Positions 3,401 through 23,734 of a stretch of DNA of 24,340 nucleotides are shown here, in pieces. The position numbers and the translations under genes are program-made. Within the stretch, counting starts at the first letter, position 1. Each line of letters starts with the position of its first letter. Where the stretch lies: positions 1 to 24,340 of the IMG/VR virus record IMGVR_UViG_3300005918_000125. The stretch is one strand, 5' to 3'. The notes under the pieces were generated by a model that saw nothing but the letters and a program-made list of their open reading frames with translations, searched no databases and was not told the origin of the DNA. The DNA comes from a virus.

Positions 3401-4177
3401 TTAACCTGACCATCCGTTTCTGAATTTAACAGTAAATCCAGCATCTAGATTTCCAACTGAAATTGTAGAAGTACTTCCAGCAGCTGCCAATTGTATTAAT
3501 CCAAAACCAGTAGTTGTTTGTACAGTTTTTATTTGTGCTCCTGCAACTGTAGCATAATTATATTCTGTAACGTAAATTCCAGAACCTGAATCAACCATTT
3601 TTACAAATGTAACCACAACTGTTTGACCTGTAGTTAAACTAGCAGCTGGTATTTTTATAGCGTTTCCTTCAGCATCGCTAATTGTAATATCAGCAGCTCC
3701 GCTTGTGACATCCCCAGATATTTCTTCAATAAATGTAGTTACATCTCCGCCATTAGTTAATTGTCCACCACCGTTTGTGTAAGTCTGTTGTGTATTATCG
3801 AATAATATACCAATAATTGTTTGATATGTAGCAACGTAATCTATAAAATTAGTCCTTCCACCGCTGTTTGTTTTCTTTATCTGTCTGCCAATACCTAAAT
3901 AGAACTTGTCAGTCTCAAAGTAAAGCTTTTTAAGCTGTGTATTTTCTTGAATGTGTCTTCTGAGATTACGATAATTTGCTAGCTTAGTAGAGCCATCCAT
4001 GTGTCCTGTAAGGATAATACTTAATGGATTAATTCCACCACCGCTAATTGCAATATGATGTCTCTGATATGCTATATTAGAGAATGTAAAGTTGGCATCT
4101 AACGTGTCGTCAAATGTATTTGGATTATGCGGAAACGTGAATGCATCAGCAGTTCCTGCGTAGTTTTCTATTTTCAT
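3401..4177 (-). CDS. Distal tail (Dit-like) protein with extra C-terminal beta domain
   Basis: A 258-residue protein between tape measure and tail hub, the normal place of the distal tail protein. The N-terminal part contains AFTFPHNPNTFDDTLDANF and a later GHMDGSTKLANYRNLRRH, resembling tail proteins that build the ring joining tube and hub. From about residue 125 a Gly/Thr/Ser-rich stretch (YTNGGGQLTNGGDVTTF) leads to a beta domain ending in RNGWSG. The ATG at 4177 is chosen because it overlaps the tape-measure stop as ATGA; upstream in-frame ATGs would overlap more. The family assignment rests on position and a few motifs, so the precise fold is uncertain. Confidence 0.6.
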   Translation of the reverse strand: MKIENYAGTADAFTFPHNPNTFDDTLDANFTFSNIAYQRHHIAISGGGINPLSIILTGHMDGSTKLANYRNLRRHIQENTQLKKLYFETDKFYLGIGRQIKKTNSGGRTNFIDYVATYQTIIGILFDNTQQTYTNGGGQLTNGGDVTTFIEEISGDVTSGAADITISDAEGNAIKIPAASLTTGQTVVVTFVKMVDSGSGIYVTEYNYATVAGAQIKTVQTTTGFGLIQLAAAGSTSTISVGNLDAGFTVKFRNGWSG

Positions 4178-4908
4178 GACCATAGTGCATCCCACCATCT
4201 AAGCATAAAAGCTTTTCTTGAATCTTCAGATTTTATCATTTGAAGCTCACCACCAGGAGTTGGCCGAAATCCTTCTGCTGCTATTTCAGAAGCAGATTGA
4301 TCTACAGAAGCTAATGCTTGTAAACTTCCAGGAACTTGTTCAGCTTCTTCTGTTAAAAATTGTCTAGATTTTCCTGATACATGTTCACCGGCTTTTGCGC
4401 CAACATATCCAGTAACAGCAACCGCTGCTAATGCAGCTAACATTGGGGCTGAAACTGCACCACCTAGTGCTGTAACTAATGCTGTTAATGCTTTAATACC
4501 AACAAGTGAACCAGCTGTTATTAAGAACCCTTTTGTAATATCTGGATGTGCATCAACAAAACTTACAAATTTTGTAAAGCTTTCTGCAAATTTATTAAAG
4601 AACGGTTGTAATTGTTGGCCTAGAACTCTGGATAATCTTCCAAATTCTACACCAATCTTTGCCATTGCTGGTGCAACAGCTGGTGCACTTTTTGCTAATC
4701 CAATCATTGCAGCTAATCCGACAGATGCAATAAGACCTAACCCTTTACCAACTTGTGCAGTAGCTTGTCCTATTCTCTGCATATCAGAACCAAATGACTT
4801 TGCACTAGACTTAACTCTATCAAATCCTCGTTTCATTCTCACGAATCCACGGTCAATCATTGTTGTATCGATTGAACCTGTTATAGTTAATTCTCCTGCT
4901 TCTACCAT
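4174..4908 (-). CDS. Tape measure protein, unusually short
   Basis: Only 244 residues. The N-terminal third is helical with a regular charged pattern (RGFVRMKRGFDRVKSSAKSF), followed by a hydrophobic Gly/Ala segment (LGLIASVGLAAMIGLA), a helical section, and a second hydrophobic region around residues 128-165 (GFLITAGSLVGIKALTAL, then APMLAALAAVAVTGYVGA). This is the usual layout of tape measure proteins, which set tail length and help DNA cross the membrane. The gene starts directly after the stop of the frameshifted chaperone frame (TAA-ATG) and overlaps the next gene by ATGA. Most siphovirus tape measures are far longer; by the usual 0.15 nm per residue this one predicts a tail of only some 35-40 nm. 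No lytic domain is seen. Confidence 0.8.
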   Translation of the reverse strand: MVEAGELTITGSIDTTMIDRGFVRMKRGFDRVKSSAKSFGSDMQRIGQATAQVGKGLGLIASVGLAAMIGLAKSAPAVAPAMAKIGVEFGRLSRVLGQQLQPFFNKFAESFTKFVSFVDAHPDITKGFLITAGSLVGIKALTALVTALGGAVSAPMLAALAAVAVTGYVGAKAGEHVSGKSRQFLTEEAEQVPGSLQALASVDQSASEIAAEGFRPTPGGELQMIKSEDSRKAFMLRWWDALWS

Positions 4909-8079: not shown

Positions 8080-9243
8080 TTATACACAAAAGAATCGTGG
8101 GCCCATGTCTTCAGTTATTTGAAGAATTCTAGCTTTCATCTGGTCAATCGATTCTCTAATATTAACATATACCTGACCTCGAGAGAAATTCTTTCGACCT
8201 AAACTATAAGTACTAATATCTTTATATGAACCACCTGAAATATTAACAAGTGCCATCATTCCAGTAACTAATGCACAGAGTTCCTGGATTAATACAGGTA
8301 CTGTATCATATCCATGAATAAATGTTATCTTGATATTCCGTTTTCCATTAGGAATTGATTGTGAATTTAATACCACTCGGCCTTCATCATCTAAACTAAT
8401 ATAATCAGAATCAACTGTCATATCAACAGTTCCAGTTCTACTAAGATACTCAACAGTAGTTATAGATGTAATTCCTTTATAATCTAATTCAAATTCTGGT
8501 GCTTCTTCAATTTGGAATCCAAAAGGTCTATTTGTTTGTGGATATCCGGAATCGTAACCATCAAAATACTGAATACTCGTTTTATCAGTACCCCAATAAT
8601 TCCCAGTTAATTTATCAACTTCAGCTTGAGCCATCGGTAAATATGTAGCTAAGATAGTGTCAGATTGCTTTGGTGAATAAGTATAACTAATATAAAGTTC
8701 ATTTGTAGACAATGCAGTAACTCCAGCTGTTAATAGTAATATTCGACCATCGTCTTTAAAAATAGTATAATGTGTGCCTTCAGTCATTTCAGATAAATTA
8801 TTTGCATCATCACCGGTTGCTCCATAGTAAACAGTATATGAACCATCAATAATATTACCTTTATCTGTATCAAATGATTTATTACTTGCATCACCAGTTC
8901 CTAGACTTTCAAGTTCTATTGCAACTCCGATTCCACTAAATTGAACAGCTTGTAATGTATCACAATAATATGGACCACCGGATGCAGGTGTTGTTGATGT
9001 AACAAAATAATCCAAAGATATAGGCTGGTCGTCCCAGATTTCATTTAAGAATGTAATTGTATTAAGATCTGAATCAAATGTAAAATTAATAGTGTTTTGT
9101 AAGATAGCTTCTGATACTAGGATTTGCATCTGTAAAACTGTAGCGTCATCATTTCCAAGCTCATAAGTTCTATTAGCTGTGCCAGATGCACCTGTTAAAT
9201 CAGTACCCGTGATTGTTTCTGATTTTGGAATATAAGTTGTCAT
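8080..9243 (-). CDS. Head-tail connector-like protein with two added beta domains
   Basis: The 387 residues are about twice or more the length of ordinary connectors. The C-terminal half carries the helical connector-like part (PVLIQELCALVTGMMALVNI, then SLGRKNFSRGQVYVNIRESI and DQMKARILQI). The N-terminal half consists of two sandwich-like modules, at about residues 20-85 and 115-190, with the pattern of a T/F-x-L start, a turn, and an ISLDYF or ISYTYSPK end strand; the same module is inserted in the tail-terminator-like protein. AGGAGGAG lies five bases before the ATG, one of the strongest SD sites here. The protein probably sits under the portal with the extra domains pointing outward. Confidence 0.65.
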   Translation of the reverse strand: MTTYIPKSETITGTDLTGASGTANRTYELGNDDATVLQMQILVSEAILQNTINFTFDSDLNTITFLNEIWDDQPISLDYFVTSTTPASGGPYYCDTLQAVQFSGIGVAIELESLGTGDASNKSFDTDKGNIIDGSYTVYYGATGDDANNLSEMTEGTHYTIFKDDGRILLLTAGVTALSTNELYISYTYSPKQSDTILATYLPMAQAEVDKLTGNYWGTDKTSIQYFDGYDSGYPQTNRPFGFQIEEAPEFELDYKGITSITTVEYLSRTGTVDMTVDSDYISLDDEGRVVLNSQSIPNGKRNIKITFIHGYDTVPVLIQELCALVTGMMALVNISGGSYKDISTYSLGRKNFSRGQVYVNIRESIDQMKARILQITEDMGPRFFCV

Positions 9244-9252
9244 TTTCTCCTC

Positions 9253-9630
9253 CTAATATATAACACACCCGTCAGTGCATAACATTGTGCATTGTTCAGT
9301 TGTACTATTTCCTGTAATTTTTATATCATTAAAATTTGTGAGGTTTCCAGTTACATTGAAAATTCCTTCTCCTAAAACTATTAAATCATTACCGTCTAAA
9401 TCTACTTCTGTAGTAATTGAACAATTATCACCACAGACAACTTCCCAATCTCCTGACCCGGAATATGTACATGAATCAGATGGCACAACTTCATAAACAA
9501 TTAATTCGACATTTGTATAATCAATTGTTGCTGTTCCTACTTCTCCTGTTAATGCGACATCAGTATAATCAACACCGGATGCTGAAGTAATCATGATAGA
9601 TATCATTATAAAATAAATTAAATATTTCAT
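9253..9630 (-). CDS. Exported small Cys-rich beta protein
   Basis: A 125-residue protein with a clear signal peptide (MKYLIYFIMISIMITSASG) and a mature part that has beta-solenoid character (CSITTEVDLDGNDLIVLGEG) and ends with a Cys cluster (CTMLCTDGCVIY). It has four N-glycosylation sequons. The ATG at 9630 overlaps the stop of the previous gene as ATGA, so the longer in-frame extension to 9705 is rejected. It is the third of three consecutive exported proteins. No family was recognised; disulfides and sequons suggest an extracytoplasmic glycoprotein, either on the host surface or added to the virion outside the cytoplasm. Confidence 0.75.
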   Translation of the reverse strand: MKYLIYFIMISIMITSASGVDYTDVALTGEVGTATIDYTNVELIVYEVVPSDSCTYSGSGDWEVVCGDNCSITTEVDLDGNDLIVLGEGIFNVTGNLTNFNDIKITGNSTTEQCTMLCTDGCVIY

Positions 9631-10796
9631 GGTACGGTTATATTGGTGGCACAAGTTGTATTTTGTAAAACTGAACCTATAGTCCACGCCCAACAAGCAC
9701 TCCAAATTCCTCCATAAACTTCATCAATCCAATTTCCAGTTGAATTAGAAAGAACATTATCTAATGATACATTTGTCAATTGATCTGTTAACATAATTAC
9801 ACCGTTTTCTACAACAGTCCCATTGACATATTTTGTAGTTCCCTGCATATTATATAAATCTAAACTTACATTTAATGCTTCACTTGTGGCTGTTGAAGTT
9901 TCATTTGTAAAAGTTGTATCGATACATCCAAGATATATTGAAGTATACCCAGTTCCAGTTACTAAAGCATCAGCGTCTGGTAATAAACAATCATGTGATG
10001 TTGCCCCTGTAGTTGTACAATTTCTATCATTATCCATAGTTGTCCAGTTTTCATCAACCGTATTAATTCTACAATATGCTGGTAAAAATGTATCAAATGT
10101 AATTCGTGGAGTTTTATTTCTTGTTGAAATAGCAACATCACCATTTCCGTCACGCCAGGCAGTTGTGTTTTGTCCTGTAAAAGCGTTTGTAAAATTATAA
10201 GTTGCATTATTAATAACTGGTTCTAATGGACTAGATTCTTCAAATCCTAACTTTAAACCATAATCTCTGGCGAAAGGATTCCCCCAAGTATTAGGATTAT
10301 ATGTTGCATCTATATCTGTATCAGTGTCTGAATCAGCACAACCTGCAGTTATAGTTCCTTGAGTCCAATAATTATTTGCTACTTCAGCTCCTTTATTTGC
10401 TGTTGTCCAAACAATCCAAAAAGGAGTATCTGCATTCATTTCATAACTAGAATTAAACACACAAGTATTCCACGCGCTAGTGTTACCCGTATCTATAGTT
10501 CCTTCTAACAAAATTGTTGCTGATGGTTCACCTGATCCGTCATCTGGTCTTAACTGACAAACTGCTTGACCTGGAGTTCCAACTTTAGAATATAAATATG
10601 TTGTAGCGTTAATTATACTATTAGTTGAATTAATAGAAAAATTAGAAGCATCCAAATAAAAATTATTATTAGAAAACATTCCTAATACCTGACCATCACT
10701 ATCAACAGTAGGACAAACATCATACTCAGTCCAAGCATTTACCGTTCCTACTAGCAACACTAGTAATAAAACCCAAATTAATATTTTATGTTTCAT
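9627..10796 (-). CDS. Exported, sequon-rich surface protein
   Basis: A 389-residue protein with signal peptide MKHKILIWVLLLVLLVGTVNA followed by WTEYDVCPTV. Residues about 22-190 resemble a jelly-roll binding domain (NATTYLYSKVGTPG, then TPFWIVWTTANKGAEVANN), and residues 200-310 look like an immunoglobulin-type module with paired cysteines (YCRINTVDENWTTMDNDRNC, DCLLPDADA, LGCIDTTF). About 18 N-x-S/T sequons are present. This composition is typical of secreted proteins of DPANN-like archaea. It overlaps both neighbours by ATGA, so the three exported proteins are translationally coupled. Candidate roles are adhesin, host surface remodelling, or a fibre; none is proven. Confidence 0.75.
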   Translation of the reverse strand: MKHKILIWVLLLVLLVGTVNAWTEYDVCPTVDSDGQVLGMFSNNNFYLDASNFSINSTNSIINATTYLYSKVGTPGQAVCQLRPDDGSGEPSATILLEGTIDTGNTSAWNTCVFNSSYEMNADTPFWIVWTTANKGAEVANNYWTQGTITAGCADSDTDTDIDATYNPNTWGNPFARDYGLKLGFEESSPLEPVINNATYNFTNAFTGQNTTAWRDGNGDVAISTRNKTPRITFDTFLPAYCRINTVDENWTTMDNDRNCTTTGATSHDCLLPDADALVTGTGYTSIYLGCIDTTFTNETSTATSEALNVSLDLYNMQGTTKYVNGTVVENGVIMLTDQLTNVSLDNVLSNSTGNWIDEVYGGIWSACWAWTIGSVLQNTTCATNITVP

Positions 10797-12085
10797 CCTA
10801 TTATTATTGACGAGGTTTGACCCTGTATTATAATGTGCGTTGAATTATCTGTTATATAATGATTTGTTGAATTAGTTTCTAATTTAATATATTCAACTGT
10901 TAAATTTGTGTCCATTATATAATTACCAGTTCCGAAAGTTCCAGTTGTTACTTGACTAGCTGGATATGTTAATGCATCAGATTGGGTTGTATTATAATAA
11001 TTTCCTTCATCCGCACTCCAATTTCCTAGGGTATCAACAACTGCTGATGTGTAGTAATCTGATTTATCCGCACTCCAATTTCCTAGGGTATCAACAACTG
11101 CTGATGTGTAGTAATCTGATTTATCCGCACTCCAATTTCCTAGGGTATCAACAACTGCTGATGTGTAGTAATCTGATTTATCTGCAGTCCAGTTTCCTAG
11201 GGTATCAATAATTGATTGTGTGTAATATAATGTGTTAGTATATGTTGTATTAAGATCCCACACATTATTTGTTATATTTATTGCAATACTTCCAGTATGA
11301 CTTGCATTTACTCGGGTATCAATTGTTGTATTAAGTAATGTTTTATTAAATGTTAAATCAGCATCTCCGGAAACAGTATTTCCACCTAACCAGTTGTCAC
11401 TAGAGTTAGTTAAGACAGCAGTAATAGTACCACTACCTGCCGGAGTCCCACAAGACAGTGAGCCATTATCCAATATCTCATTAATAAAATCACCACCACT
11501 ACAAGTATTCGGTGTAATTTCTTTTTGGAAAGTCGCATTTACATAAGTTTCCATAGATATATTTGAAGCAATAACAATAATATCAATAGTTTCATTTAAT
11601 TTTGTTTCATTTAAAGTAGCTGTAGTTCCAACCATATAGATATAAATACCGTCGACAGCTGTGATAAATTTGTTTGTTAAGTAACTCCAATCCACAAATC
11701 CTTTAAATCTATTAGCAGTCACGTTATTAGTTACTGTAAGATTTACTAGTGTTCCAACTTGAGTAATATTTCTAGGTTCATCCAAATCATCCCAATACTC
11801 AGAACTGTTTGCTGTCGTAGCTGAATCAGAAAAATCAGAGTAATTAGCATAACTAGAATAATTAGCTAATGTTGAATAATTTGAATAACTAGAATAATTT
11901 GTAGTAGATACTCCAGTTCCTGAGTCTATTACTTTATTACCGTCTTGATAAAATGCAGTAGCATTAATTTGCCAACTATCATTTATTGTACGATTTCTCA
12001 TAACAATATCACTTGATGGTGTCCAAGCTACCGCTATCGGAATTAATAACAATACAAGGATTATTAATAAAAGTTTATTCTTCAT
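10793..12085 (-). CDS. Exported fibre/adhesin-like protein with 19-residue repeats
   Basis: A 430-residue protein with signal peptide MKNKLLLIILVLLLIPIAVAW. The mature part contains a Ser/Tyr/Asn-rich region (TNYSSYSNYSTLANYSSYAN), a long beta region, four tandem 19-residue repeats near residues 284-360 (YYTSAVVDTLGNWSADKSD), and a C-terminal VEYIKLETNSTNHYITD. About 30 N-x-S/T sequons occur, against about four in the 509-residue portal. Similar YYT-V-LGNW repeats occur in phage tail fibres and archaeal surface proteins. It begins inside the preceding gene (11-base overlap) and has no SD of its own, so it relies on coupling. The pairing of fibre-like repeats with a signal peptide is unusual in a virion protein. 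Confidence 0.78.
   Translation of the reverse strand: MKNKLLLIILVLLLIPIAVAWTPSSDIVMRNRTINDSWQINATAFYQDGNKVIDSGTGVSTTNYSSYSNYSTLANYSSYANYSDFSDSATTANSSEYWDDLDEPRNITQVGTLVNLTVTNNVTANRFKGFVDWSYLTNKFITAVDGIYIYMVGTTATLNETKLNETIDIIVIASNISMETYVNATFQKEITPNTCSGGDFINEILDNGSLSCGTPAGSGTITAVLTNSSDNWLGGNTVSGDADLTFNKTLLNTTIDTRVNASHTGSIAINITNNVWDLNTTYTNTLYYTQSIIDTLGNWTADKSDYYTSAVVDTLGNWSADKSDYYTSAVVDTLGNWSADKSDYYTSAVVDTLGNWSADEGNYYNTTQSDALTYPASQVTTGTFGTGNYIMDTNLTVEYIKLETNSTNHYITDNSTHIIIQGQTSSIIIG
11009..11236 (+). repeat. Tandem 57-bp repeat, four copies, three identical
   Basis: Units begin at 11009, 11066, 11123 and 11180. The first three are identical over all 57 bases; the fourth is diverged (for example TCTGCAGTCC instead of TCCGCACTCC). 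Each unit encodes one 19-residue repeat of the exported fibre-like protein. Perfect identity at the DNA level, including third positions, points to recent duplication or slippage. There are no unique spacers, so it is not a CRISPR array. Confidence 0.95.
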
Positions 12086-12425
12086 CTTGTAGTTCTAAAA
12101 TATATTTTACTCTCTTTGCTTCAGTTTTAAGTGTTTTAATTATTGTATTAGCAACACCATGTTTCTTTAACAAATCAAGAAGTGATTCTTCATCAAATCT
12201 TTTTAAAGCTGATTTTGAAAATCGAGGTATTATAATTCTTTTTGGTTCTTCCATAACTTTTTCTGGTGTTTCTTTAACATCATGTTTGTCGATATCATAT
12301 TGAACATCTGTTTCATTTGTAAGAACACATTTTGGAAGTTCTGCTGTATCTCCAGGATTAACAGAAATCCATTCTCCTTCTTGTTTAAAATTTTTAATTA
12401 TATTTGATGTATTTTTAATTTTCAT
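12075..12425 (-). CDS. Hypothetical 116-residue protein with C-terminal helical domain
   Basis: Not firmly recognised. The N-terminus (MKIKNTSNIIKNF, then ISVNPGDTAELP) resembles small phage proteins of the neck/fibre region with a short beta module. The middle is charged (KETPEKVMEEPKRIIIP), and the C-terminus forms predicted helices (KSALKRFDEESLLDLLKKHG). GGAGG lies five bases before the ATG, and the gene follows the 57-residue membrane protein by one base. It overlaps the first exported protein. A role as an assembly or attachment factor for the downstream surface proteins is conceivable, but rests on position only. Confidence 0.68.
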   Translation of the reverse strand: MKIKNTSNIIKNFKQEGEWISVNPGDTAELPKCVLTNETDVQYDIDKHDVKETPEKVMEEPKRIIIPRFSKSALKRFDEESLLDLLKKHGVANTIIKTLKTEAKRVKYILELQDEE

Positions 12426-14957: not shown

Positions 14958-16010
14958 CTACGCAATCCCATACATCTGGGATGATGCTGCTTCGAATGTA
15001 TTAACAACGGTTAGATATTCTTTAAGAAGATATACAAATCCGTCTTGGTCTGTGTACTTTTCTTCGTACGTTAAATCTTGTAGCACTGCTAGGAAGATAT
15101 ATCGCATGTCTAAGAATAGTATTCTTTTTGACGATGCTCCTGTTGGCATAAAGATATCCTTTATGAACATTAACTGGTCAAACTCGAATGCGTCTGGAAT
15201 ACCAAATCCAAGAATTCCTTGTGAAGGATTTGTAACCTGTCTCTGAATATCAAGAAGCAATCCTTTCACGTAGTTGTGAGTTGTTGCGTCTGTAATAGCT
15301 AGAGTAGGGAAACCTTTCGCATTAAAAGTTGTTGCAATTTCAGCCCTGATTAATGGTAGAGTTGGATTACCACCTGCACGGTTTGTTGTGTTAGTTGTAA
15401 TTAACTTAATCATACCACTAGGTTCTAGAGGAGTTGTACTTGCATCACCATTAATTAGTGCGTCTTCTTCCGCTTCATAAATAGAGTCAGTTTTAACACC
15501 AAGATCTAATTGTGTAGGGTCGATAAATCCACGCATACCAGCAATAGCAGGTCCTGAAATAAGTCCTTTAGCATAAAGGAATTTTACAGCGACTGATACT
15601 CTATCATATGTGTCATCCACAACAGCTAGTGAACCGTTTTCTGCAGCCCAGAATGCACCGCCTTTTGCAGTTAGTGGGATGTAATCGTATGTTAATCCTC
15701 TCATAGCTCGTCTTGGAGTCATGTTTCTTAGAGGGGTTTGTCTTATTGTTCTATTAACAACATTTGGGTCTGGATATACTGGAACTAAAGCTGTTCCTGC
15801 TGTACCTGCTCCGCCTGTTTGTGAATCAATAGATGCTTTCTCCATGGTTGCTTTCGCAATGTCCATTCTACTATCAACCTTATTGAATGGGTTGTAATAT
15901 TCTTTAGAGAAACCACCGAATGAATCCTTATCAATTTTTCCAGCATTAAATCGTGATTGACACTTTTCAACACTGAAGCCATCTTCGTAACCTTTAAATG
16001 TAGCTTTCAT
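14958..16010 (-). CDS. Major capsid protein, HK97 fold
   Basis: A 350-residue protein in the canonical place after the prohead protease. A charged N-terminal region (KGYEDGFSVEKCQSRFNAGK and on to about residue 75) precedes the shell domain, which shows the family-like VYPDPNVVNRTIRQTPLRN, TYDYIPLTAKGGAFWAAENG and later LLDIQRQVTNPSQGI. Thousands of these would form the head. Two ATGs compete: the one at 16010 has AAGGAGG eight bases upstream, while the one at 16016 is only two bases from it, so 16010 is chosen. The N-terminal region may be cut by the protease, as in HK97, but the scaffold here is attached to the protease instead. Confidence 0.85.
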   Translation of the reverse strand: MKATFKGYEDGFSVEKCQSRFNAGKIDKDSFGGFSKEYYNPFNKVDSRMDIAKATMEKASIDSQTGGAGTAGTALVPVYPDPNVVNRTIRQTPLRNMTPRRAMRGLTYDYIPLTAKGGAFWAAENGSLAVVDDTYDRVSVAVKFLYAKGLISGPAIAGMRGFIDPTQLDLGVKTDSIYEAEEDALINGDASTTPLEPSGMIKLITTNTTNRAGGNPTLPLIRAEIATTFNAKGFPTLAITDATTHNYVKGLLLDIQRQVTNPSQGILGFGIPDAFEFDQLMFIKDIFMPTGASSKRILFLDMRYIFLAVLQDLTYEEKYTDQDGFVYLLKEYLTVVNTFEAASSQMYGIA

Positions 16011-16023
16011 TATCATAGCCTCC

Positions 16024-21941: not shown

Positions 21942-22026
21942 CTTTTAAAATTACCTCTTTTTTCGTCTTGAACTTGATAGTTTGGGTATCAGGTTTAATT
22001 TGTTTCTTCTTGTATTCTTTTACCAT
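21904..22026 (-). CDS. Possible 40-residue basic protein
   Basis: An open frame from an ATG that overlaps the terminase stop (ATGGTAA) to a TAA inside the winged-helix gene. The product, starting MVKEYKKKQIKPDTQTIKFK and ending SNRKNIKK, is extremely basic. It fills the otherwise empty 78-base gap between the terminase and the winged-helix gene and has the start-stop overlap usual in this operon, but overlaps the next gene by 38 bases. It may be real or chance in Lys-rich, AT-rich sequence. Confidence 0.4.
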   Translation of the reverse strand: MVKEYKKKQIKPDTQTIKFKTKKEVILKDESKSNRKNIKK

Positions 22027-23423
22027 TCTATCGATACCTCTGTCATTTCCTCATTACCCGGCATTCCCAATCCAAAGAAACACCGCATCATCAAACTATC
22101 AGCAAAGTCAGGGGATCTACCAATCACATCTTTAATTTCATCTTTGCTGATAACTTGTAATTTCTTCTCATTGTCCTCGACATCTTTACGTTTGATACCC
22201 TCTAGTTCCTGAATAATCCAGTTACGAATATCAAGCGGTACTTCCGGGTAGCACCCAAGTTTCCCTTCGTTCACTAAATCTGCTAACTTGAAATAACATT
22301 GAGCCCGAAGGTTCTTGAAGGAATATCTATCAGTCTCTTGAAATCTGTATTGCTTATCGTCATCAAATTCGGTAACCGGTCGACCAGCATTGACGAATGC
22401 ACATACGCCTGGTAGATGGTCAACCACGCCCCCACCTACACCATCCTGGTCAACTACAACGTGTTCGAACGGAATTCGATATTGCTTACATTTATTCTTT
22501 ATCTTGTCCTCCAAGAAATTCGTCGAGCTCTTATCATAATACCATACTTTCCTGATATAATAACCTTGCCATAGAACAATAACTGCTTTGTCTCTCCCAA
22601 ACCTCGCAACATCAACACTCAAATACATATCACTATCTGCCTGTGGATCATAGGCTTTTCCAAATATTTTAAGAATATTCTCGTATTCCATGAGAGCTGC
22701 AGAATCGTCATCATATTCCCAAAGTCCGTTCTTCAGTCTCTCTCGCATCACTCGGTCTTTAATTTTATTTAACTGTATTCCATAAGTCTCGGCGGTATAT
22801 GGATTATCTGTATATAGTGATTGTATGAAACAAGTGTCTCTCGGTAACACATCCTCTTTCCATTTAATATAGAAATCAAAGTACACCCAGTTCTTCTTCG
22901 GGTTGCACGTCAGAAATATCTTAGCATACAAATTACACTCATCGTTCATATGTCGGCCTATCCTAGATTTCAGAACCTCGAAGGCTTTGCTGTTAATCTC
23001 GCCAACTTCTTCCAACCATCCGCCGGTGTATTCTGTACTACCGAATCTCTCGTATAGTGGGTCTGCTGGTTTGTATGCAACGTCGAGAAGATCTATTCTC
23101 GAGCCGTTCCAGAATTGAATATAATTGTATTGAGAATTAAGTTTCCAACAACTCATTGGGATGTTATGTCTTTTACAAACTTTCTGGAATGTGATAAATG
23201 TAGAAGCCATGATTCTCTTGAGTTCATTTCTACCTATAAACCATTTAGATCCCGGGTGTGCAATACACATAATGAGAAGCCATTCGCAACCAATCCAAGA
23301 TTTACCACCACCTGCTCCTCCACCAAATAGTATAAACTGAGTGAAGTCATCTTTCAGACGTTCCCAGCATTCCCCTTGTTTGATTGTAGGATTTATCTTT
23401 ATTTGAAAAGCTTTCTTTGACAA
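22020..23423 (-). CDS. terL: Terminase large subunit
   Basis: A 467-residue packaging motor. The ATPase domain has Walker A GGAGGGKS (residues 35-42), a Walker B region YTGGWLEEVGEI (about 132-143), and the coupling motif FLTCNPKKNW. The nuclease domain has SVDVARFGRDKAVIVLW, the second acidic motif VVVDQDGVGGGVVDHL, and the third DFADSLMM near the C-terminus. The start is TTG at 23423, with AAAGAGG seven bases upstream; no ATG fits better. It binds the portal, cuts the DNA concatemer and drives it into the head. It follows the small subunit after one intervening small membrane gene. Confidence 0.93.
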   Translation of the reverse strand: MSKKAFQIKINPTIKQGECWERLKDDFTQFILFGGGAGGGKSWIGCEWLLIMCIAHPGSKWFIGRNELKRIMASTFITFQKVCKRHNIPMSCWKLNSQYNYIQFWNGSRIDLLDVAYKPADPLYERFGSTEYTGGWLEEVGEINSKAFEVLKSRIGRHMNDECNLYAKIFLTCNPKKNWVYFDFYIKWKEDVLPRDTCFIQSLYTDNPYTAETYGIQLNKIKDRVMRERLKNGLWEYDDDSAALMEYENILKIFGKAYDPQADSDMYLSVDVARFGRDKAVIVLWQGYYIRKVWYYDKSSTNFLEDKIKNKCKQYRIPFEHVVVDQDGVGGGVVDHLPGVCAFVNAGRPVTEFDDDKQYRFQETDRYSFKNLRAQCYFKLADLVNEGKLGCYPEVPLDIRNWIIQELEGIKRKDVEDNEKKLQVISKDEIKDVIGRSPDFADSLMMRCFFGLGMPGNEEMTEVSIEW

Positions 23424-23506: not shown

Positions 23507-23734
23507 TTAAACTTTACAAACCACAGTCGGTAACTTATGTTCTTCATCATATCCACGAACACAATAATTCATAGGCTCTGTGAATTCCTGACATGATAGT
23601 ACACCGTTGTCGTCTATAACATAACTGGTTATCTCATCGTCCTCTCCTCTCACAAAATCAGCAACTACTGCGAGTGTCATGATAATCATACATATCATAA
23701 CTACAATTCCTACTAATTTATTAAATTTAGTCAT
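23507..23734 (-). CDS. Small exported or membrane-anchored Cys protein
   Basis: A 75-residue protein with an N-terminal membrane segment at about residues 6-27 (LVGIVVMICMIIMTLAVVAD) followed by an acidic stretch (RGEDDEITSYVI) and three cysteines (SCQEF, NYCVRG, VVCKV) in a presumably outer domain. It starts inside the small terminase stop (ATGA overlap), a surprising neighbour for packaging genes. No family was recognised. It may alter the host envelope, for example excluding other viruses, but this is speculation from topology. Confidence 0.65.
   Translation of the reverse strand: MTKFNKLVGIVVMICMIIMTLAVVADFVRGEDDEITSYVIDDNGVLSCQEFTEPMNYCVRGYDEEHKLPTVVCKV

Follow-up and report, generated by a model that had tools for sequence, protein, structure and literature searches.

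The particles of tailed viruses are generally taken to be built in the cytoplasm, and the locus analyzed here raises the question of what three genes for predicted secretory proteins are doing among the structural genes of a tailed virus. The window, i.e. the whole stretch of DNA analyzed (24,340 bases of an IMG/VR record that carries no host label), comprises the structural half of the genome. Pfam and PHROG searches identified the terminase, the portal (phrog_2662), the capsid protein (SU10_MCP) and the head-tail adaptor (phrog_442), as well as the prohead protease with a borderline match to Peptidase_S78; the names tape measure, tail tube and hub follow from position or from homology among relatives only. 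The three genes (henceforth SP1, SP2 and SP3, together the cassette) all lie on the minus strand and overlap by four bases each (ATGA), in agreement with the first-pass annotation, which had described three coupled genes with signal peptides inside the head gene block. This location is borne out by the capsid protein gene upstream and the adaptor gene directly downstream. The relevant features are as follows:

8080-9243, minus strand: head-tail adaptor (phrog_442, E 1e-8), directly downstream of the cassette, conserved neighbour
9253-9630, minus strand: SP3, 125 aa from its ATG, predicted signal peptide and C-terminal β-rich domain, 6 cysteines
9574-9630, minus strand: predicted signal peptide of SP3, MKYLIYFIMISIMITSASG (from hydropathy)
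9627-10796, minus strand: SP2, 389 aa, predicted signal peptide, 18 sequons, 10 cysteines
10734-10796, minus strand: predicted signal peptide of SP2, MKHKILIWVLLLVLLVGTVNA (from hydropathy)
10793-12085, minus strand: SP1, 430 aa, predicted signal peptide, W-T-P-x-S-D-I module and fibre-like shaft, 30 sequons, 2 cysteines
11009-11208, minus strand: 57-base tandem repeat in the SP1 shaft, 3.5 copies, 19-aa unit with one sequon each
11930-12025, minus strand: conserved N-terminal module of SP1 (WTPSSDI...INATAFYQDGNKV), found in relatives with and without a signal peptide
12026-12085, minus strand: predicted signal peptide of SP1, MKNKLLLIILVLLLIPIAVA (from hydropathy; cleavage before WTPSSD)
12075-12425, minus strand: small gene preceding SP1, with an 11-base overlap
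14958-16016, minus strand: major capsid protein (SU10/HK97 type), upstream of the cassette, query used for relatives

Sequence features of SP1, SP2 and SP3

The N-termini of all three proteins are signal-peptide-like: the n-region is short and basic, the hydrophobic core is uninterrupted, and the c-region is compatible with signal peptidase I. This sets the proteins apart from fibres made in the cytoplasm, where no export signal is expected. Cleavage is predicted between AVA and W in SP1, VNA and W in SP2, and ASG and V in SP3, and in the aligned relatives of SP1 the probable -1 position is occupied by a small residue (A, S or G), followed by a conserved W/F/Y/D-x-P start. The lipobox check proposed earlier revealed no cysteine at +1 in SP1-3, and no strongly hydrophobic segment was found in the mature proteins (best 19-residue mean hydropathy 1.28, 0.86 and 0.75, respectively), i.e. 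SP1-3 lack both the lipobox and the mature membrane anchor that mark membrane-anchored or lipoprotein superinfection-exclusion proteins.

The number of N-glycosylation sequons (N-x-S/T) exceeds that expected from composition-preserving shuffles in SP1 (30 vs 11.0, p <0.0005), SP2 (18 vs 8.4, p <0.0005) and SP3 (4 vs 1.6, p 0.048), and the excess in SP1 is due in part to the 57-base tandem repeat. No other gene in the window exhibits a significant excess. The sequon richness reported for the two larger genes is upheld, and the cysteine richness reported alongside it applies to SP2 and SP3 but not to SP1.

The Cys-containing C-terminal domain of SP2 also occurs in cassettes of relatives, and Laminin_G_3 is present in some of the proteins concerned. 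Two other proteins of relatives end in the C-terminal domain of SP3, namely the 1562-aa protein of L004 and a large exported-type protein of L059. Pfam and PHROG searches with SP1-3 returned weak matches only, which were discarded, and a PDB search by sequence returned nothing. The AlphaFold model of SP2 shows a helix at residues 2-21 (pLDDT 36.7, remainder unusable), while that of SP3 comprises the C-terminal β domain only, for which no fold match was found in the PDB.

Conservation of the slot and selection for sequons

The capsid protein search identified 38 loci. Every exported-type relative with an intact slot before the adaptor has 1-4 exported-type hypervariable proteins there, and in most relatives the upstream edge of the slot is the small gene that precedes SP1 in the window. 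Across 8 relatives, the alignable length is 17% for SP1, 9% for SP2 and 22% for SP3, and 99-100% for the capsid protein and the adaptor. Between the window and the near-identical L002, the only two base changes in 7758 bases are both amino-acid changes in SP1, and SP1 of L002 has one 57-base repeat unit fewer. In four fully read exported-type contigs (G003, G005, G007 and G008) the slot is the only place where sequon richness and a hydrophobic N-terminus coincide in one protein, and no other fibre-like gene was seen. A capsid-alignment scan of genome contigs and a P0002 scan of viral contigs yielded nothing.

Pooled over 32 cassette proteins, N-x-S/T occurs 730 times against 366 expected from shuffles, which are uncorrected for internal repeats (z 25), with at least a 1.5-fold excess in 31 of them. 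In the same proteins the reversed motif S/T-x-N is at chance level (365 vs 366), N-x-x-S/T is at 0.97-fold, and N-P-S/T likewise shows no excess. From these sequence patterns we consider it likely that the cassette proteins are exported and selected for N-glycosylation.

The cassettes of some relatives also include partners that resemble uncleaved signal anchors (e.g. L010:15129, L014:13156 and L034:9803). Three loci (L012:14079-14909, L014:13156-14010 and L034:9803-10645) encode cassette proteins with a length of about 280 aa, 16 cysteines and an uncleaved-looking N-terminal membrane segment; such proteins are absent from the window. A more distant virus (L062, 9312-16031; G001), whose exported-type protein is sequon-rich and 1562 aa long, also has genes for glycosyltransferases, a UDP-sugar dehydrogenase, an epimerase and a B12-radical-SAM protein, and may make or modify a glycan itself.

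Relationship to unexported virus fibres

As would be expected of virus fibres, the cassette genes belong to the neck/tail block, where they lie immediately upstream of the adaptor gene. In the sister viruses G009 and G013 the same slot is occupied by fibres without a signal peptide or a sequon excess (106 vs 98 expected); the capsid protein of G013 is 90% identical to that of the window. The SP1-type protein of L006 has a signal peptide, the same-slot fibre of G013 has none, and the two share 50% identity over 164 aa (E 1e-41). The L006 protein is the sole cassette protein without a sequon excess, as expected for a recent swap of the shaft. Laminin_G_3 is likewise found both in several exported cassette proteins and in a 233-aa neighbour in G013 that lacks a signal peptide. 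The shafts of SP1 relatives match proteins annotated as tail fibres in Pelagibacter and Prochlorococcus phages. The fibre homology is that of these relatives; P0001 itself gave no match among isolate phages, and neither did the capsid protein or the fibres of L083 and L064. According to the capsid tree, the exported or unexported state has switched at least twice. G013 and the exported-type G005 share replication genes (DNA polymerase 53%, ligase 56%), which argues that the difference in export is not simply one of host kind.

The N-terminal module and a second group of viruses

The signal peptide of the SP1-type proteins is followed by a conserved module, (W/F)TPxGxIxLRxxYxI...INATxxYGNGS. 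A pattern search with this module retrieved unrelated tailed viruses in which an exported-type module protein adjoins the adaptor. The arrangement is repeated in a second group of 38 loci, whose capsid protein is about 33% identical to that of the window. The exported-type fibre lies directly after the adaptor in L081, L135, L143, L150, L151, L154 and L155 of this group; in this group and in viruses of the L083 type it is found either there or within one small ORF of the adaptor. The profile comparison of the L083-type adaptor with that of the window was not significant, and the link is made by BLAST via L081. In the second group, ORFs with a hydrophobic N-terminus contain 462 sequons against 239 expected, and all other ORFs contain 851 against 825. 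The architecture of the cassette is clade-wide and recurrent across virus groups.

The module also occurs without a signal peptide. The fibres of L146 and L147 start directly with MSDFTPQGDINLRD, their ATG overlapping the adaptor stop codon, and in L165 the module is likewise N-terminal, at the adaptor stop and not preceded by a signal peptide; this version is 51% identical over 39 aa to the exported module of L081. The L147 fibre contains 27 sequons against 16.9 expected (1.6-fold), so sequons are an imperfect marker of export. L165:4024-4281 encodes an 85-aa mini-fibre, in which the module, without a signal peptide, is linked almost directly to a C-terminal tail that recurs in the 784-aa fibre of L147.

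The simplest view of an unexported fibre encoded beside the adaptor is that it belongs to the virion, so the module is most simply a virion-docking piece, to which the signal peptide is an addition; we infer that it docks on the particle. Judging from the ordinary fibres that fill the slot in the sister viruses, and from the module lacking a signal peptide in the second group, the cassette proteins seem to be modular virus fibres, usually with an added export signal and selected for N-glycosylation.

Predicted hosts

The hosts are probably archaea, likely DPANN (small symbiotic archaea). A contig of a genome (G032) from the BMS3Abin17 phylum, a Pacearchaeota lineage (PMC11537232), encodes a related capsid protein, a tail-tube protein of about 65% identity and an SP1-type protein beside the adaptor, but at 2.1 Mb G032 is large for DPANN, and binning errors are possible. 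Run on 327 genomes of the phylum, the module HMM gave weak, mostly partial matches, of which only that on the G032 contig was used. The archaeon GLR112 encodes a related tube, as well as an adaptor followed by an SP1-type protein, and STT3/AglB (PF02516) is present in all three archaeal bins with related fibre modules. None of 299 genomes from one bacterial phylum matched the tube protein.

The terminase large subunit (22020-23423, minus strand) aligns over at least 93% of its length with those of Bacteroidota phages (Polaribacter, Flavobacterium, Cellulophaga, Bacteroides), at 36-44% identity. The Bacteroidota host that this suggests is disfavoured by the ribosome-binding sites: among the window genes considered, 48% are preceded by a Shine-Dalgarno sequence of 5 bases or more, while the share is 0-4% in Flavobacterium 11b and Polaribacter P12002L. 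Of the five genome matches of the DNA pattern, those to Altererythrobacter and Parcubacteria have no fibre-like gene and were taken as chance.

The archaeon SI037_bin53 encodes, on its chromosome (L088:3-3309) and near apparent cellular housekeeping genes, an exported fibre-like protein (636 aa, 34 sequons) paired with a LamG protein (at least 465 aa, 17 sequons). This pair is a possible cellular source or sink of viral modules.

Possible fate of the exported proteins

Export of the cassette proteins is far better supported than their destination. The reading that we prefer, with a probability of about 0.5, is that the fibres are exported, glycosylated outside the cell and docked on particles at exit. 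The cassette would then represent the virus's own adhesive fibres, re-routed via the host secretion pathway: made late in infection, exported by Sec and cut by signal peptidase, they would receive N-glycans from the host oligosaccharyltransferase (AglB/STT3) on the outer side of the membrane and collect at the cell surface until, on lysis, the conserved N-terminal module docks on the neck (the adaptor region) of released particles, resulting in virions with a sugar-coated fibre for adsorption. The export, the glycosylation, their timing, the docking and the role in adsorption are what we infer from sequence. A more tentative proposal, for which we see slightly less than an even chance, is assembly in two compartments, with the head and tail made in the cytoplasm and the fibres secreted, glycosylated by the host and joined to the neck at or after lysis; that each virion would carry host-made glycans, and that sister viruses would swap modules between exported and cytoplasmic fibres, is put forward with similar reserve.

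Docking has to contend with the cytoplasmic assembly of tailed virions, since until lysis the membrane separates a Sec-exported protein from the particles, and we know of no tailed virus that completes its particle with exported fibres. Or might the proteins, once exported and glycosylated, remain at the infected cell or in its immediate surroundings and form no part of the particle? They could then act as adhesins that block the virus's own receptor (superinfection exclusion), cover or restructure the S-layer, or cause cells to aggregate. We regard this as a real but less probable alternative. The signal peptides and the sequon selection suit it, as do the domain types, which are typical of cell-surface proteins. 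The signal-anchor-like partners in some relatives and the chromosomal pair in SI037_bin53 also agree with it and count against docking; such exported chromosomal relatives, the kind of homologs that the first-pass annotation had proposed to seek among host surface proteins, keep a surface role possible. However, display on the cell leaves unexplained the fixed place beside the adaptor and the replacement of ordinary fibres in the same slot, the apparent absence of any other fibre gene, and the module shared with fibres that lack a signal peptide and start at the adaptor stop codon; nor do SP1-3 possess the lipobox or the strongly hydrophobic C-terminal anchor that would retain them. It is mainly these module fibres without a signal peptide that lead us to prefer docking at exit over permanent surface display. 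Among the roles suggested earlier, addition to virions at exit thus fits best, given the modular fibres, the adaptor-side slot in several groups, the replacement of ordinary fibres and the shared module; S-layer remodelling and exclusion of rivals received no direct support.

It is improbable that the hydrophobic N-terminus is an uncleaved virion or membrane anchor of fibres that stay in the cytoplasm and are never glycosylated. The AlphaFold model, in which an N-terminal helix is all that is seen, would agree with such an anchor, but the sequon excess tracks the hydrophobic N-terminus in two groups and is absent from the fibres of the window's clade that lack a signal peptide, small residues occupy the likely -1 position before the conserved start, and L146, L147 and L165 use the downstream module alone. 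A segment serving solely as a virion anchor, which had been named earlier as an alternative, is disfavoured on the first and last of these grounds. Least probable of all, in our opinion, is that the genes are captured cargo, i.e. host surface-protein genes with no role in the virus cycle: archaeal chromosomes do encode relatives of similar domain make-up, but the genes occupy the slot of every exported-type relative in which the region is intact, are coupled by ATGA in the window, and keep their position in unrelated virus groups.

Comparison with known systems

The fibres of tailed viruses are generally taken as virion parts made in the cytoplasm. The cassette resembles the receptor-binding tail or neck fibres found in tailed phages and in archaeal tailed viruses, e.g. 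the hafunavirus adhesins (PMC8651126), in its modular repetitive shafts, hypervariability, place in the structural block, shaft similarity and LamG lectin domains. It differs from them in its signal peptides, the two-fold sequon excess and the cysteine-rich partners, and its slot is at the head-tail adaptor, whereas that of known tail fibres is at the tail tip. The LamG/DUF2341 protein of the cultivated Methanoculleus virus Blf4 (L122) matches the DUF2341/LamG region of the 1562-aa L004 protein, but it is encoded in the tail gene block, lacks a signal peptide and has 4 sequons vs 2.8 expected.

Glycosylated parts are not unheard of in archaeal tailed virions: virion proteins of the lytic HRTV-DL1 are reported to be faintly glyco-stained, and its life cycle was unaffected in an aglB mutant (PMC10384203, PMC10544981). 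However, no export signal was seen there. ORF24 (attachment) of HRTV-DL1 has nine sequons, but, unlike in the window, none of the structural genes found in its genome encodes a signal peptide, and sequons are not in excess (33 vs 30.1); across the cultivated archaeal tailed viruses HRTV-DL1, HFTV1 and psiM2, neither signal-peptide-like structural genes nor an overall sequon excess was found. The spike proteins of the enveloped pleolipoviruses HFPV-1 and HRPV-1 are N-glycosylated (PMC10384203) and resemble the cassette as virus-encoded surface glycoproteins modified by host N-glycosylation (predicted for the cassette). However, pleolipovirus virions are enveloped and bud, while the window carries a tailed-virus gene set and SP1-3 lack a C-terminal membrane anchor. 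The L088 pair shares with the cassette the signal peptide, the sequon density, LamG and the adjacency of the genes, but it is chromosomal, next to cellular genes, whereas the cassette lies beside virus structural genes. In the open literature (subscription journals were largely outside the scope of the search), no description of exported, sequon-selected tailed-virus fibres was found. If our prediction is true, either particle assembly extends beyond the cytoplasm or fibre genes are re-used as adhesins of the infected-cell surface. Few viruses have been described for poorly known archaea, and an export signal with an FTPxGxINLR module beside the adaptor offers a signature for finding them.

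Other genes of the window

A 75-aa protein encoded just upstream of the terminase gene (23507-23734, minus strand) has a strongly hydrophobic N-terminus and 4 cysteines, and is possibly a fourth exported or membrane protein. The gene in the tape-measure position (4174-4908, minus strand) encodes only 244 aa with no Pfam match; the tail may be very short, or the gene may have another function. Near the left end, the sole large plus-strand gene (188-943) encodes a papain-family C1 peptidase (Pfam E 1.5e-12) and faces a minus-strand gene (957-1160) for a 67-aa protein with a membrane segment; the two possibly form a lysis module.
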